Source: Nitrospirota bacterium
GTDB lineage: Bacteria > Nitrospirota > Nitrospiria > SBBL01 > JAADHI01
Assembly (NCBI GenBank): GCA_029261195.1
Contig: JAJDBU010000065.1
Coordinates: 1-64,000, forward strand
Length of the DNA stretch: 64,000 nt
Reading direction: 5' to 3'
Every line of letters starts with the position of its first letter. Position 1 is the stretch's first letter. The notes beneath the pieces are model-generated. The model had not been told where the DNA came from. It searched no databases and worked only from the letters and a program-made list of their open reading frames with translations. Shown here piece by piece: positions 32,971 through 50,724 of this stretch. The position numbers and the translations under genes were made by a program.

Positions 32971-33615
32971 TTGAAAAAGAACACCAAAGCACAGGCAAGA
33001 GCGGCTGAGATCATCCGGCGACTTGAGCGCTCCATACCGAAAGCTGATACGGCATTAAATCACGACAGTCCCTTCCAACTTTTGATTGCGACAATTCTCT
33101 CAGCACAATGCACAGATGTCCGCGTCAACCAAGTCACCCCGGTACTCTTTAAGAGATATCCGGGACCGGTGGAAATGCTTCAGGCCGATCCAGACCGGCT
33201 GTCATCTATCATCCATTCGACCGGCTTTTACAAAAACAAGACAAAAAATGTCATCGCTTGCGCAAGGCGGCTTGTTGATGTTTTTGACGGACATGTTCCC
33301 GAAAATCTTGAAGACTTGATAACCCTGCCAGGCGTCGGAAGGAAAACGGCCAACGTCGTGCTGGGGACTGTTTTTCACAGGCAGGCCATTGTTGTGGATA
33401 CCCATGTCCGACGTATCGCCAGGCGTTTGCGCTTGAGCAGTTCAAATGATCCGACACAGATCGAAATCGACTTAAATCGTCTTTTGGAGCAAAAGATCTG
33501 GACTTCCGCCGCCCACCGACTACTCCTGCATGGGCGGCATGTCTGCAAATCACGCAAACCCCTGTGTGAAGGATGTACACTTTTCGATCTTTGCCCGGAG
33601 AGACAAGAGAACTAA
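32971..33615 (+). CDS. nth: Endonuclease III
   Basis: '[16 protein letters not shown]', HhH '[14 protein letters not shown]', '[12 protein letters not shown]', FeS '[17 protein letters not shown]'. Confidence 0.93.
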
Positions 33616-33622
33616 AACTCAA

Positions 33623-33646
33623 ATATGCACTTTCATATGCACTTTC
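33623..33646. repeat. 12-bp tandem duplication (atatgcactttc x2)
   Basis: 33623-33634 and 33635-33646, between nth and moaC. Confidence 0.9.
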
Positions 33647-33719
33647 AAATGGCATAAATCTCTTTTTTTTGACAGCTCTTAAGGCCTATGCTAAACTTTT
33701 TTTCATAAACCGGAGAAGG

Positions 33720-34229
33720 ATGATGACCACTGAAAAACTGACACATTTCAACACAGAAGGCCGCGCAAGAATGGTCGATGTTTCGAACAAGCCGGACACA
33801 CATCGAACCGCTATAGCCAGCGGAATCGTCTTTATGAAATCGGAAACACTGGCGCGAATTGAAGAGGGCCAGATTGCAAAAGGAGATGTTTTAGCAGTCG
33901 CCCAGGTGGCCGGGGTGATGGGGGCGAAAAAAACGCCCGACCTTATCCCGATGTGCCACCCTCTACTGATTACCAGCGTTGATATCAAATTTGAAATATT
34001 CCAATCCGAAAACAACAAGCCGGCATCGATTAAAGTCATCGCCACTGCGAAAACTTCGGGGCAAACCGGTGTTGAAATGGAGGCGGTGACGGCAGTCAGT
34101 ATCACGGCCTTGACCATCTACGACATGTGTAAGGCCATCGACAAAGGCATCAGCTTCGGTCAGATCGGTCTCATCGAAAAGAGTGGCGGCAAGTCGGGAT
34201 TGTATCAACGCCTTGAACCCCTGCCATGA
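33720..34229 (+). CDS. moaC: Cyclic pyranopterin monophosphate synthase
   Basis: '[20 protein letters not shown]', '[18 protein letters not shown]', '[26 protein letters not shown]'; ORF-track start is over-extended. Confidence 0.93.
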
Positions 34230-34242
34230 TTCGACCCTGCCT

Positions 34243-35646
34243 ATGATCCGAATAGATCACCTTTCTAAGGAATTTACCCCCGGGAATCCGGTGGTGAATG
34301 ATATCAGCCTACACGTTAAAGCCGGGGAAGTCTTTGGTTTCCTTGGACCCAACGGGGCAGGAAAGACCACAACAATTAAAGTCTTAACCACGCTGCTCCA
34401 CCCAAGCTCGGGTACGGCAAGCGTTGCCGGTCACGATGTGTCTAAAGACCCGCTTGCCGTTCGGATGTCCTTTGGTTATGTCGGCCAGCAGAGCGGGGTT
34501 GATCCGGCGATGACGATCGGGGAAAACCTCACTCTTCAGGGACGGCTTTACCACCTCCCCCTTAAAGTCATCAAAGAGCGGATCAAGTTTCTGCTCGACA
34601 TTTTTGACATGAGTAACCGTGAAGGACAATGGGTAGGAGCGCTTTCCGGCGGACTGAAACGACGGCTCGACATCGCCACTTCCTTGTTACACGAACCAAA
34701 ATTGCTTTTTTTAGACGAACCCACACTGGGACTTGATCCGACGAGCCGATCAGATCTTTGGACTTATCTCAGGCGACTCAACAAGGAGGAGGGCATGACC
34801 CTCTTCTTAACGACACATTATCTCGACGAAGTCGATCAATTGGCCCATCGAGTCGGCATTCTTGACTCCGGGCGTATCCGGGCGATTGGTACTCCGGATG
34901 AGCTGAAAGACAGTCTCGGTGCTGATGCCATACACCTTACGTTTGAGCAAGCCCCGAAGAAAGAACAACTCGCCTTGCTCAAATCAAATTCATCCTCCGA
35001 CGAGGTCATTCAGCAGGGAAATGCTGTCCGGCTCTATCTGGAAAACGGTCGGCGGGCTCTGCCAAAGGTGATTCAGTGGTTGGATGAACACCAAATGTCG
35101 CCCAAATCCGTCTTGCTTGCCCGCCCGACTTTCGATGATGTCTATTTAAAATATACGGGAAAAGACTGGGCTTTGGCCGATCAAAAGACTGACGATGATA
35201 GTTCAGCTTGGGGTGGTTCAGGCAGTGGAAAGTGGAAAAACAAGTGGAATAAAGACGGTGGGCAATCTGGTGAAGATTGGGAGAAATGGAACAAGGATGG
35301 GGAACAGTCCGGAGGCGATTGGGAAAATCAGTGGCAAAATCAAACCGGACAGTCTGAAAACACCCAAGGACAAGAACAGCCCATGAAAGAAGCGGAGGCT
35401 ATGAAAGCGAAGCCCCAAGTGAGTCAAGAGGGCAAGAAGCAGGTTTCGCCCCCGAAGAAAAAAGAGTCCACTGAAAAAGACGAAAAACAGTGGCAAGGAA
35501 AGTCGAATGACCAGTGGCAGGAAGGTTCAGAACCTTCAGAATCTTCTAAAGAAGAGTGGCCGAATCAGTGGCAGGACAGCAACAAAGAGTCCGATAAAAA
35601 AAAGTGGCCTTCTGACCAAAAATGGGACCCCGATAAAAAGTGGTAG
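34243..35646 (+). CDS. DrrA-like ABC transporter ATP-binding protein with atypical Trp-rich C-terminal tail
   Basis: 'GFLGPNGAGKTTTIKVL', 'LSGGLKRRLDIATSLLHEPKLLFLDEPTLGLDP'; tail from ~35185 is low-complexity W/Q/K/E/S/D/G/N. Confidence 0.92.
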   Translation: MIRIDHLSKEFTPGNPVVNDISLHVKAGEVFGFLGPNGAGKTTTIKVLTTLLHPSSGTASVAGHDVSKDPLAVRMSFGYVGQQSGVDPAMTIGENLTLQGRLYHLPLKVIKERIKFLLDIFDMSNREGQWVGALSGGLKRRLDIATSLLHEPKLLFLDEPTLGLDPTSRSDLWTYLRRLNKEEGMTLFLTTHYLDEVDQLAHRVGILDSGRIRAIGTPDELKDSLGADAIHLTFEQAPKKEQLALLKSNSSSDEVIQQGNAVRLYLENGRRALPKVIQWLDEHQMSPKSVLLARPTFDDVYLKYTGKDWALADQKTDDDSSAWGGSGSGKWKNKWNKDGGQSGEDWEKWNKDGEQSGGDWENQWQNQTGQSENTQGQEQPMKEAEAMKAKPQVSQEGKKQVSPPKKKESTEKDEKQWQGKSNDQWQEGSEPSESSKEEWPNQWQDSNKESDKKKWPSDQKWDPDKKW

Positions 35647-35654
35647 TTTAATTT

Positions 35655-36416
35655 ATGAGCTATTTTTTCTCCGACACCAAATACCTCCTTTTTAAATATC
35701 TAAAGCTCACATGGCGCATGCCGATGTGGACGCTTTTCGGCCTCATCCAGCCCTTGCTCTGGCTTGTGATCTTCGGCCAGCTTTTTAAAGGACTTTCAGA
35801 ACTCCCGCAGTTTCCAAAGGGGGACTATGTGCAGTTCTTGACGCCGGGTATCATCGTGATGACCGTCCTCTTCGGGGCCTCATGGTCGGGCGTCAGCCTG
35901 CTTCGTGATTTGCGCTACGGGGTCATGGAGAAACTCTTTGTCGCACCCATTGTCCGTGGTTCCATTGTACTGAGTCGCCTGCTGCACAATGGCACAACCG
36001 TCGTGATCCAAGTCGCACTGCTCATCATTGTCGCCGCAGTACTCGGTGCAGGCCTGCCGACTGGCATGGGATGGCTCTGGGTTTGGATCACCGTATTGAT
36101 GTTAGCCGTGGGTTTTTCAGCCGTCTCGAATGCCCTGGCAATGACCTTAAAACGAGAAGAGCCCCTCGTCGTCATGGGAAATATGTTGACCCTCCCCCTC
36201 CTCTTTTTCTCTCCCGCACTGGTTCCTGGTGACTTTATGCCGGTCTGGATGCAGTATGCCAGTCGAATCAACCCGGTCTATTATGGGGTCGAGGCCGTTC
36301 GAGCTTGTTATAGCGGCGTATTTTCACAAGCCTTCTGGATGAGTATGGGGGTGCTTGGCGTATTTTCCGTCGTGGCCGTTGCCGTTTCAATCGCTATTTT
36401 TCAAAAAACAGAGTAG
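35655..36416 (+). CDS. ABC-2 type transporter permease
   Basis: 253 aa, multiple TM segments; 'GIIVMTVLFGASWSGVSLLRDLRYGVMEKLFVAPI'. Confidence 0.9.
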   Translation: MSYFFSDTKYLLFKYLKLTWRMPMWTLFGLIQPLLWLVIFGQLFKGLSELPQFPKGDYVQFLTPGIIVMTVLFGASWSGVSLLRDLRYGVMEKLFVAPIVRGSIVLSRLLHNGTTVVIQVALLIIVAAVLGAGLPTGMGWLWVWITVLMLAVGFSAVSNALAMTLKREEPLVVMGNMLTLPLLFFSPALVPGDFMPVWMQYASRINPVYYGVEAVRACYSGVFSQAFWMSMGVLGVFSVVAVAVSIAIFQKTE

Positions 36417-36421
36417 GCCCT

Positions 36422-37054
36422 ATGCATAGTGACAGCGGCAGAAAATCAAACATCGCCCTCTTTCTTCGTCATGGTGAAACCGATTTTTCAAAGCACCGAT
36501 TTTATAACGATGCGATTGAAGATCCGCCACTCAATCCCCGAGGTTTGCAACAAGCGGAGCTTTGGGAAGAACGCTTGAAAAATGGGCGTGAAATAGCAGC
36601 AATCTATGTCAGTCCTTCCCTGAGAACACAGGAGACAGCACGAATTGCTACGGCTGCCCTCGGCATTGAGATTAAGACAGTTACAGGTTTAAGAGAACGA
36701 AGTTTCGGGACTTGGGGTGGCCTGAGCACTGAGGAAGTGCAAAAAAAATTCCCGGAAGACTGGACCGCATGGAAGCGTGACAAGATGCACCATGCACCCG
36801 GTGGGGGTGAGTCTTTGATGGATTTTTTTAAACGGGTTTCAAAGACCGTCGCGCAACTGACCTCACAACACCACGAACAAACCCTTCTGGTCGTGGCCCA
36901 TGCCGGAACCATCCGAATGCTGGTTATCGCGGCCCTCGGCATGCCGCTCGAAAACTTTAAACGCCTTGTGATTACAAACTGTTCGATGACAGAAATTGAA
37001 TATAGTGACCAATGGCCGAATCTACACCGCTTTTCATTTCGTCCCGACGCATAA
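36422..37054 (+). CDS. Histidine phosphatase family protein
   Basis: 'LFLRHGETDFSKH', 'YVSPSLRTQETARIA', 'LLVVAHAGTIRMLV'. Confidence 0.9.
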   Translation: MHSDSGRKSNIALFLRHGETDFSKHRFYNDAIEDPPLNPRGLQQAELWEERLKNGREIAAIYVSPSLRTQETARIATAALGIEIKTVTGLRERSFGTWGGLSTEEVQKKFPEDWTAWKRDKMHHAPGGGESLMDFFKRVSKTVAQLTSQHHEQTLLVVAHAGTIRMLVIAALGMPLENFKRLVITNCSMTEIEYSDQWPNLHRFSFRPDA

Positions 37055-37065
37055 AGGAAACCGCC

Positions 37066-38115
37066 ATGAAAAAAGAAAACACAAAAGAGGCTCAGCAGAA
37101 AAAAAACTTAACCAGCGGATCCGATCCCATGGAGGTGATGCGCATTGCATCGGCCTACTGGCAATCGAAAGTGCTGCATACCGCAGTCCGGCTTGATGTC
37201 TTCACACAACTCAAAGATGGACCTCTGACGGTAAAACAACTGGCAAAGGCCTGTAAGGCCGATCCACGAGGACTGGAAATTCTGCTCATCGCCGTCGTTT
37301 CTCTCGGTTTATTGAATCAAGAAAACGGGCTTTACCAAAACACCCTTACCTCTAGCACCTACCTCGTAAAAGGGAGCAAAAAGTTTCAGGGTGGCATCGT
37401 CTCCATGTTTGAGAGTTGGTATCCCGCCTGGGGAAATCTCTGTGAAGCCGTCACTGAGGGAAAACCCGTCGTTGAAAAACCGCATGACCAGGGACCTGAA
37501 GCCCTCAAAAACTACATCTACGGTATGCACTATCGTGCGATGGGGCAGGGGGACCTCCTGGCAAAAGACATTGATTTGTCCGGACGGAAGCACCTGCTGG
37601 ATGTCGCCGGTGGGCCGGGGACCTTTGATATCAAATTCTGTCAGGAGAACAAGGGCCTTTCCGCCACCGTACTGGATCTGCCGCAAACCCTGGAAATTAC
37701 CAGCGAGATTGTCACCGCTTTTGGCATGGAAAATCGAATCACACGGCGTCCGGGAAATTATCTGACTGACAACTTTGGTAAGGGTTATGACGGTGTTTTA
37801 CTCTCCTCCATGTTTAATCAGGAGTCGCCGAAGATCATTTTAAATATCCTTCAAAAGGCATTCAAGGCAATTGATGCCGGCGGGATGATCCTAGTACAGG
37901 ACCAAATGCTCAACAGGCAAAAAACAGGTCCGGAACTCGCTGCATTGATCGGAGTTAATCAGCTCATCCATACCCCCGGCGGTGCAGCCTATTCTGAAAA
38001 AGAAATCTCAGATCTGATGGAAAAAGCCGGTTTCAGAAAGATCAAGACGGTTAAGCTATCCGAACCCACTCCTTTTGTTGTCCTCATGGGCGAAAAGCCG
38101 AAAATCGGAGACTAA
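37066..38115 (+). CDS. SAM-dependent O-methyltransferase-like protein
   Basis: 'KHLLDVAGGPGTFDIKFCQEN', dimerisation-like N-terminus; ORF-track start over-extended. Confidence 0.82.
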   Translation: MKKENTKEAQQKKNLTSGSDPMEVMRIASAYWQSKVLHTAVRLDVFTQLKDGPLTVKQLAKACKADPRGLEILLIAVVSLGLLNQENGLYQNTLTSSTYLVKGSKKFQGGIVSMFESWYPAWGNLCEAVTEGKPVVEKPHDQGPEALKNYIYGMHYRAMGQGDLLAKDIDLSGRKHLLDVAGGPGTFDIKFCQENKGLSATVLDLPQTLEITSEIVTAFGMENRITRRPGNYLTDNFGKGYDGVLLSSMFNQESPKIILNILQKAFKAIDAGGMILVQDQMLNRQKTGPELAALIGVNQLIHTPGGAAYSEKEISDLMEKAGFRKIKTVKLSEPTPFVVLMGEKPKIGD

Positions 38116-38123
38116 AAAAAGAA

Positions 38124-38942
38124 ATGATAATCAATCGAATCCGGGTAAGGATCACCCTGTTTTCTGCCCTGCTTCTCCTCATTGGCTTTGGCACAAAGCC
38201 CGCGCAATCAGAAGCGCTCACAGGGGAAGAGATCATTAAAAAATCACGGGATCTCATCTATCAGGTAGAGGATCAGAAAAATACGGTGAACCTGCTCTTG
38301 GTCGAGCGAGACGGCTCAAAAAAGAAGATCATCGCAAGCCGGTATTGGAAAAACTATCGGAGCAAGGAAGATGTTGACAGTAAGATGCTCCTCATTACAG
38401 AGTTTCCGCCGGACTCCCGTGGCATCTCATTTCTGATTTGGGACTACTCAAAACTTAATAAGGGCGATGATCTCTGGCTTTATCTGCCTGCTCTCCGCAT
38501 GGTCAGACGTATCTCGGCCCAGGATCAGAATGACGCCTTCCTAGGCTCGGACCTGACCTTTGGTGACATGGGCCAACGCCGACTTGACGAAGATGTTCAT
38601 ACCTTTTTAAAGGAGGAAGACTATCACAGTGTTCCGACTTATCTCGTAGAGTCTGCTCCAAAAGAAAAGTCGAGCATCTACAGTAAAAAGATCTCCTGGA
38701 TCTCAAAAAAGGACTGGACTGTCCTGAAAATCGATTATTATGACCGAAACAAAAAGCTCTTAAAACGACAGACGATTGATTGGCAGACTGTGGGTGGTCT
38801 GTTTGTCTGGAAAGAAACCAAGGTGACAAATGTGCAGAACGGCCATCGAACCCTCTTCGGCGTGGAAGGTCTTGAGGTCAACATCGGCCTTCAGGACGGA
38901 GACTTCACAGAACGTACCCTGAAACGGGGAGGGAAAAGATAA
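38124..38942 (+). CDS. Outer-membrane lipoprotein-sorting (LolA-like) protein
   Basis: 272 aa; signal peptide; 'LYLPALRMVRRISAQDQNDAFLGSDLTFGDM'. Confidence 0.82.
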   Translation: MIINRIRVRITLFSALLLLIGFGTKPAQSEALTGEEIIKKSRDLIYQVEDQKNTVNLLLVERDGSKKKIIASRYWKNYRSKEDVDSKMLLITEFPPDSRGISFLIWDYSKLNKGDDLWLYLPALRMVRRISAQDQNDAFLGSDLTFGDMGQRRLDEDVHTFLKEEDYHSVPTYLVESAPKEKSSIYSKKISWISKKDWTVLKIDYYDRNKKLLKRQTIDWQTVGGLFVWKETKVTNVQNGHRTLFGVEGLEVNIGLQDGDFTERTLKRGGKR

Positions 38943-50124: not shown

Positions 50125-50724
50125 ATGGTCGCAGAATTTAAAGATGTTGTCGATTTTCATCAACACCTCTGTCTCGATATTGCCATTGGATATCGTGCGG
50201 GCTTAGCCTTGGTCCGCGAAATGGGGGATGAATTAAAAAACATGAAAGAGGTCGTTGCCCACGTCGGGAATGAAACCTGTGCAGTGGACGCCATTCAGGA
50301 AGTCACCGGCTGCACCTTTGGCAAACGCAACATCTATTTGGATCACATAGGAAAGCCGGTCTACATCCTTCAGAACACAAAAACAGGCAATGCCGTCCGG
50401 GCTTACTGCACTTATTGGGAAAGTTTTGATCATACGGAATTACGCACCCTGAGAAAGGCGGCGAAAGCGGCAGATGCCAGTGGCGCGCAGAAAGCAGCGC
50501 TCTTAAAAAAGACAGAAGAAACCATCGAAGCCGTCTTAGCGGCCCCGGAATCAGAACTCTTTGCTATCACTCGTATCAAACTCCCTGCACCGCCGAAGTC
50601 CGGGAAATACGTAGCTGAAGCCTGTGCGGACTGTGGTGAGCAGGCCGATGTCGCCCTCCTACGGGAAGTGAGTGGAAAGCGGCTCTGCACAGAATGCGGC
50701 GTAAAAGAAACTGTCGGGACTTAA
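50125..50724 (+). CDS. FmdE-family protein with C-terminal zinc ribbon
   Basis: 'FHQHLCLDIAIGYRAG', 'TGCTFGKRNIY', C-terminal 'CADCGEQ..LCTECG'. Confidence 0.85.
   Translation: MVAEFKDVVDFHQHLCLDIAIGYRAGLALVREMGDELKNMKEVVAHVGNETCAVDAIQEVTGCTFGKRNIYLDHIGKPVYILQNTKTGNAVRAYCTYWESFDHTELRTLRKAAKAADASGAQKAALLKKTEETIEAVLAAPESELFAITRIKLPAPPKSGKYVAEACADCGEQADVALLREVSGKRLCTECGVKETVGT

Follow-up and report, generated by a model that had tools for sequence, protein, structure and literature searches.

The window analysed here, a stretch of 64,000 nucleotides, belongs to a Nitrospirota MAG whose closest named contigs come from the Nitrospirota isolates OFTM308, OFTM249 and OFTM336. It carries a forward-strand operon that opens with moaC (33573–34229, the true start probably lying downstream of 33573; Pfam MoaC, 1.9e-55) and continues with a DrrA-like ABC ATPase gene encoding 467 aa (34243–35646, from the ATG at 34243 to the stop at 35646). 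Shortly after the ATPase stop comes the ATG of the partner ABC-2 permease (35655–36416; Pfam ABC2_membrane, 6e-34), followed by genes for a histidine-phosphatase-superfamily enzyme (36422–37054; His_Phos_1), a small-molecule O-methyltransferase (37012–38115; Dimerisation and Methyltransf_2) and a LolA-like periplasmic protein of the lipid-carrier type (38124–38942; LolA_like, 5.4e-52), all on the same strand. This order was common to 12 of 12 neighbourhoods covering all seven families described below, with moaC and the permease gene flanking the ATPase gene in each. The permease scored 129.7 against the drrB family, below the cut-off of 223.05. In many lineages the operon also includes a MoaD-MoaE fusion, an FmdE protein, a small Cys/His-rich protein and a DUF1302 barrel protein, and in most it is joined by an MMPL/RND transporter that matches the sterol-sensing domain, a gene that lies away from the operon in the window genome.

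The ATPase begins with a conventional DrrA-like nucleotide-binding domain and a DrrA1-3 C-terminal regulatory domain (residues 1–307, 34243–35163), in which the Pfam ABC_tran and DrrA1-3_C matches span residues 17–304. Its score of 313.7 bits against NCBIfam TIGR01188 (cut-off 312.45) places it among DrrA-type ATPases; two orthologues score 329.7 and 328.6 bits. Because the Pfam domains end at residue 304, we set the start of the tail proper at residue 308 (35164), giving a 160-aa segment with 15 Trp (35164–35643). The preliminary description had reported a Trp-rich, hydrophobe-depleted segment at 35185–35643, and the segment is indeed there: these codons give 153 residues, 14 of them Trp; I, R, C, F, L, H and Y, and no others, are absent, and a few A, V and M occur. 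At a background of 1.3%, 14 or more Trp in 153 aa would arise by chance with a probability of about 2e-8. The tail is anionic overall, with a net charge of −8. It includes two tandem 14-aa units, WNKDGGQSGEDWEK (35245–35286) and WNKDGEQSGGDWEN (35287–35328), which are identical at 11/14 residues and differ at 12/14 codons, nearly always in third positions, bearing out the earlier observation of near-identical peptides encoded by synonymously divergent DNA.

An AlphaFold model of the window protein, run with 29 orthologues, gave pLDDT values mostly around 83–96 for the ATPase domain, with two blocks near the Walker region at 70 and 56, and values of 31–46 from residue 311 on, so that the tail is predicted to be disordered. 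When 18 tails, a set without those of families f16 and f23, were compared on their own with Pfam and PDB, no match to a described domain was found; the top Pfam match (E 0.1) was to an unrelated family, and none of the 18 matched choline-binding or cell-wall-binding aromatic repeat families. A literature search for Trp-rich ABC tails and WKKW likewise found nothing relevant, and the module appears here as previously undescribed. The f16 tails (L174, L173, L175, L176) have a character of their own: they carry two or three units of the form GNxWVNADGxxKDxxAFxxW that are predicted to be partly helical, the last unit reaching pLDDT 65–74, in contrast to the fully disordered f1 tails.

Orthologues were searched for among relatives, across the class (270 genomes) and across the phylum (396 genomes), most of the genomes compared being MAGs. 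They were present in seven Nitrospirota families, coded f1, f5, f7, f9, f11, f16 and f23. All 30 orthologues extracted (the window and 29 other genomes) carry the tail, with 71–212 aa and 9–18 Trp (5.7–14.1%), other hydrophobic residues making up at most 10% of the tails versus 33–37% of the ATPase domain; no tail-less orthologue was seen among the 30. This consistency rules out an origin by frameshift or strain-specific read-through, a possibility raised alongside the first observation. In the phylum search the last tailed orthologue scored 481 bits and the first tail-less protein 370 bits, and in a tree of the ATPase domain the 30 tailed sequences stand on one side of a branch and 29 tail-less ones on the other (support 99/98). 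The tailed ATPases thus form one clade, and the 29 tail-less relatives compared end 7–40 aa from the matched domain. A tail profile searched against 41 genomes retrieved one gene per genome. In a wider scan of 84,980 species genomes with close-relative patterns, followed by a Trp-rich scan of the loci, tails were found on Nitrospirota contigs only, a search that distant relatives would escape. A genome-wide liking for Trp-rich proteins was also considered and rejected: when the 89 WxxxW-type sites in the window genome were inspected with about 1–1.5 kb on each side, no Trp-dense ORF appeared besides the ATPase gene. The moaC, permease, phosphatase, methyltransferase and LolA proteins showed no Trp-dense stretch of the tail's kind.

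A composition scan revealed a Trp-rich, low-complexity insert in the MMPL protein of the operon as well (transporter genes at L179:12297–14870, L181:12367–15048 and the 5′ end of L183, and in the window genome, G000, on contig C55 at 216841–219396). This insert, which the tail profile did not pick up, sits in the loop between TM1 and TM2, where it follows 'DGxxAAxxxDF', the sequence at the end of the first large loop, and precedes TM2. In the standard RND topology the first large TM1–TM2 loop is periplasmic, and the charges of the MMPL protein, with a positive N-terminus and a very positive TM6–TM7 loop, fit that topology with the insert outside; we therefore infer that the insert lies on the periplasmic side. 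It was found in 27 of 27 tail-bearing genomes in which the region was readable (G000-G007, G011, G013-G017, G019, G021, G023, G026, G270, G277, G279, G285, G287, G293, G295, G307, G325), the two f23 genomes G317 and G329 and genome G030 being left out of the count because their contigs end. In G028, which is 88% complete, the insert is present and the tailed ATPase was not found, the contig ending just upstream. MMPL paralogues of the same genomes have a segment of 46–50 aa with zero Trp (10/10), and the segment is again short and Trp-free in two f6 genomes that have an MMPL-LolA system without the tailed ATPase.

Further features of the MMPL genes, and in one case of a tail as well, were noted. 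In every f16 and f23 insert read (L247–L254, L366), an AxA-[QE] sequence (AYAQEDW, AFAQEDW, AQAQEW, AHAEEW) that resembles a signal-peptidase cleavage site directly precedes the Trp motif. The f23 insert (L247) and the f23 tail (L170) contain runs such as PSPSTGEGKGGG and NPLPEGEEISLPFKGRDRVGMG, which have the look of a dispersed repeat that entered these low-complexity segments in frame. In G005 (contig C163, 10743–13344) a frameshift or an assembly error breaks the operon MMPL gene into open frames of 388 and 505 aa.

The tail and the insert have motifs in common. Across the 30 genomes with the tail (89 Mb), DNA coding for WKKWQ (TGGAARAARTGGCAR) gave 36 matches, of which 18 lie in the MMPL gene, 11 in the ATPase tail and 7 elsewhere, versus 2 matches in 30 other Nitrospirota genomes of equal total size. 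The seven remaining matches fall in short or non-genic frames, as background, which rules out a third WKKWQ-bearing protein. The pattern W[ST]xxE[MI]xxWW gave 11 matches, in seven ATPase tails (f9, f23) and four MMPL inserts (f16), and its reversed control none. A weaker case is W-x-N-x-DG[ST], which is repeated in the f16 ATPase tails and occurs also in one f9 MMPL insert. In tail-bearing genomes WKKWQ and W[ST]xxE[MI]xxWW are essentially restricted to these two proteins. Because the motifs swap between the ATPase and the MMPL transporter across lineages, their sequences indicate that both draw on one motif vocabulary, which the lineages apportion differently between the two. The preliminary description had overlooked this common vocabulary in the MMPL/RND transporter of the same operon, as well as the phylum-deep occurrence of the tail.

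Selection on the tail was estimated from 18 genome pairs. Where dS was not saturated, the tail gave dN/dS values of 0.10–0.29, far below 1, versus 0.03–0.14 for the ATPase domain. Trp was kept at 11/11, 12/12 and 12/12 aligned positions in f5 pairs, with 60–69% identity among the remaining residues, and at 9/9 positions in f9, with 63–69% identity; linkers and repeat number vary freely between orthologues. As these ratios are low and the Trp columns stay fixed while other residues drift, the tail evolves faster than the ATPase domain yet under purifying selection, in agreement with the proposal, first drawn from the tandem units, that the peptide itself is selected. We therefore give very little credence to the idea that the tail and insert are products of slippage and duplication, kept in weakly constrained low-complexity DNA with little function. 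That idea would account for the variable linkers and repeat number and for the tandem 14-aa units; the constraint on the Trp columns speaks against it, as do the restriction of such segments to two genes of one pathway and the lack of any loss in 30 genomes.

Conservation is strictest in a core dyad, WKNKW in the window (35233–35247), whose two Trp (tail W24 and W28) are invariant in 29 aligned tails with the consensus [PKN]W-x-x-[KQ]W. Since the dyad lies a short distance past the regulatory domain in all families, it might fold back on the ATPase and gate hydrolysis, with the likeness to the MMPL insert being secondary. We regard such autoregulation as improbable: AlphaFold places no segment of the tail confidently, and the insert and the motif swaps would be left unexplained.

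The pairing of tail and insert is shown by their common motifs and co-distribution, as are the operon and the purifying selection on the tail, and the two segments probably bind one and the same cargo or partner from either side of the membrane. As the RND topology would place them on opposite sides of the inner membrane, they could not simply bind each other, and with the same motifs on two unrelated transporters at opposite faces the simplest common ligand would be the exported cargo. Our leading interpretation, put forward tentatively, treats the tail as a disordered, multivalent Trp 'sticker' present on two transporters that act in series and engage the same cargo from the cytoplasmic and the periplasmic side. 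The tail of the ABC-2 exporter ATPase, facing the cytoplasm, would gather cargo at the exporter, and the insert in the periplasmic TM1–TM2 loop of the MMPL/RND protein would gather the same cargo beside the LolA-like/MMPL/DUF1302 pathway. With somewhat less conviction, we suggest that the matched modules in the ATPase tail and the RND loop may hand one cargo between two energised pumps within one pathway across the envelope that is confined to a Nitrospirota lineage. The cargo would probably be a hydrophobic or aromatic O-methylated small molecule or lipid, a guess at its chemistry and identity that draws only on the neighbouring O-methyltransferase, LolA-like and MMPL gene families. A sticker role had already been proposed for the tail, and this part of the proposal remains reasonable; binding of peptidoglycan or extracytoplasmic glycans, suggested with it, is unsupported, since an ABC ATPase, its C-terminal extension included, lies in the cytoplasm.

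The same observations allow other ligands, as the anionic charge of the tail and its freely varying linkers and repeat number fit a scaffold or partner-protein role equally well, and the common motifs could also point to one partner whose domains reach both compartments, or to anchoring at the lipid interface. Thus the Trp dyads might be short linear motifs that dock the O-methyltransferase and phosphatase at the exporter, with the periplasmic insert docking LolA or the DUF1302 barrel, so that the product is channelled without being touched by the Trp segments. Multivalent repeats, variable linkers, an invariant W-x-x-x-W core and a tight operon with the O-methyltransferase and phosphatase genes (12/12 genomes) all suit such a scaffold, which we consider rather unlikely and still almost as good an account as cargo binding; it requires that different partners in the two compartments recognise a single vocabulary, and a partner with a matching dual-side domain was not found. 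Anchoring is less probable again. Trp and Lys prefer membrane interfaces, the motif is found at either face of one membrane, and W[ST]xxE[MI]xxWW could make a short amphipathic helix, so that dyads in the headgroup zone of each leaflet might keep the ATPase, or the periplasmic domain of the RND protein, against the membrane. However, the tail is net negative and nearly devoid of other hydrophobic residues, the permease already keeps an ABC ATPase in place, and the paralogous ATPases and MMPL proteins do without such a segment.

Cargo binding by both segments, the interpretation we prefer, can be set beside known exporters. DrrA-type ABC-2 systems (TIGR01188, DrrA1-3_C, DrrB-like permease) have the same ATPase domain, regulatory domain and adjoining ABC-2 permease, but DrrA ends at the regulatory domain, where the window ATPase adds its tail. 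Wzt of O-antigen export bears a C-terminal cargo-binding domain on the ATPase, a folded beta-sandwich; the tail would similarly select exported cargo in the cytoplasm, whereas it is itself predicted to be disordered and, in the tails compared, resembles no such fold. MmpL/HpnN lipid transporters are MMPL-family RND proteins and the sole solved sequence relatives of the operon MMPL, whose Trp-rich low-complexity segment was found in none of the paralogues compared. The AmeA/AmeB/AmeD system of Castellaniella defragrans, which effects efflux of apolar monoterpenes, likewise has DUF1302 outer-membrane, LolA-superfamily periplasmic and RND inner-membrane proteins encoded together (PMC6394551). In f7, f9, f16 and f23 neighbourhoods the LolA, DUF1302-type and MMPL genes are adjacent in this Ame-type arrangement, while no DUF1302 gene was identified beside LolA in the f1 and f5 neighbourhoods; the Nitrospirota operon differs by adding moaC, the ABC-2 exporter and the O-methyltransferase, and by the insert in its RND protein.

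Disordered transporter segments of such extreme simplicity are usually dismissed as linkers. In these Nitrospirota, by contrast, a single composition with its set of motifs has been retained in different families and classes, and it recurs on two unrelated pumps of one pathway which, as we read the topology, carry it at opposite faces of the membrane. Should the module bind cargo, it would give exporters a new means of gathering hydrophobic substrates, and an ABC-2 exporter would be predicted to cooperate in transport with an MMPL protein in this little-studied phylum. Were its ligand a protein instead, the common motifs would still tie the two pumps together functionally from sequence alone.

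Two minor observations concern the remaining operon genes. A small operon protein (cluster cl9; L175, L176, L177, L178, L182, L184, L185, L186) carries an MC motif at its N-terminus, is rich in His towards the C-terminus, and gave no Pfam match in the one member scanned; it is a possible metal-binding protein. Genes related to the molybdenum cofactor, namely a MoaD-MoaE fusion, FmdE and a molybdopterin-oxidoreductase domain, occur in or beside the operon (L177:9583–10257, L177:11194–11826, L183:5097–5612), and an FmdE homologue lies in the window itself (50125–50724); together they hint at a tie between the exporter and molybdenum-cofactor metabolism.
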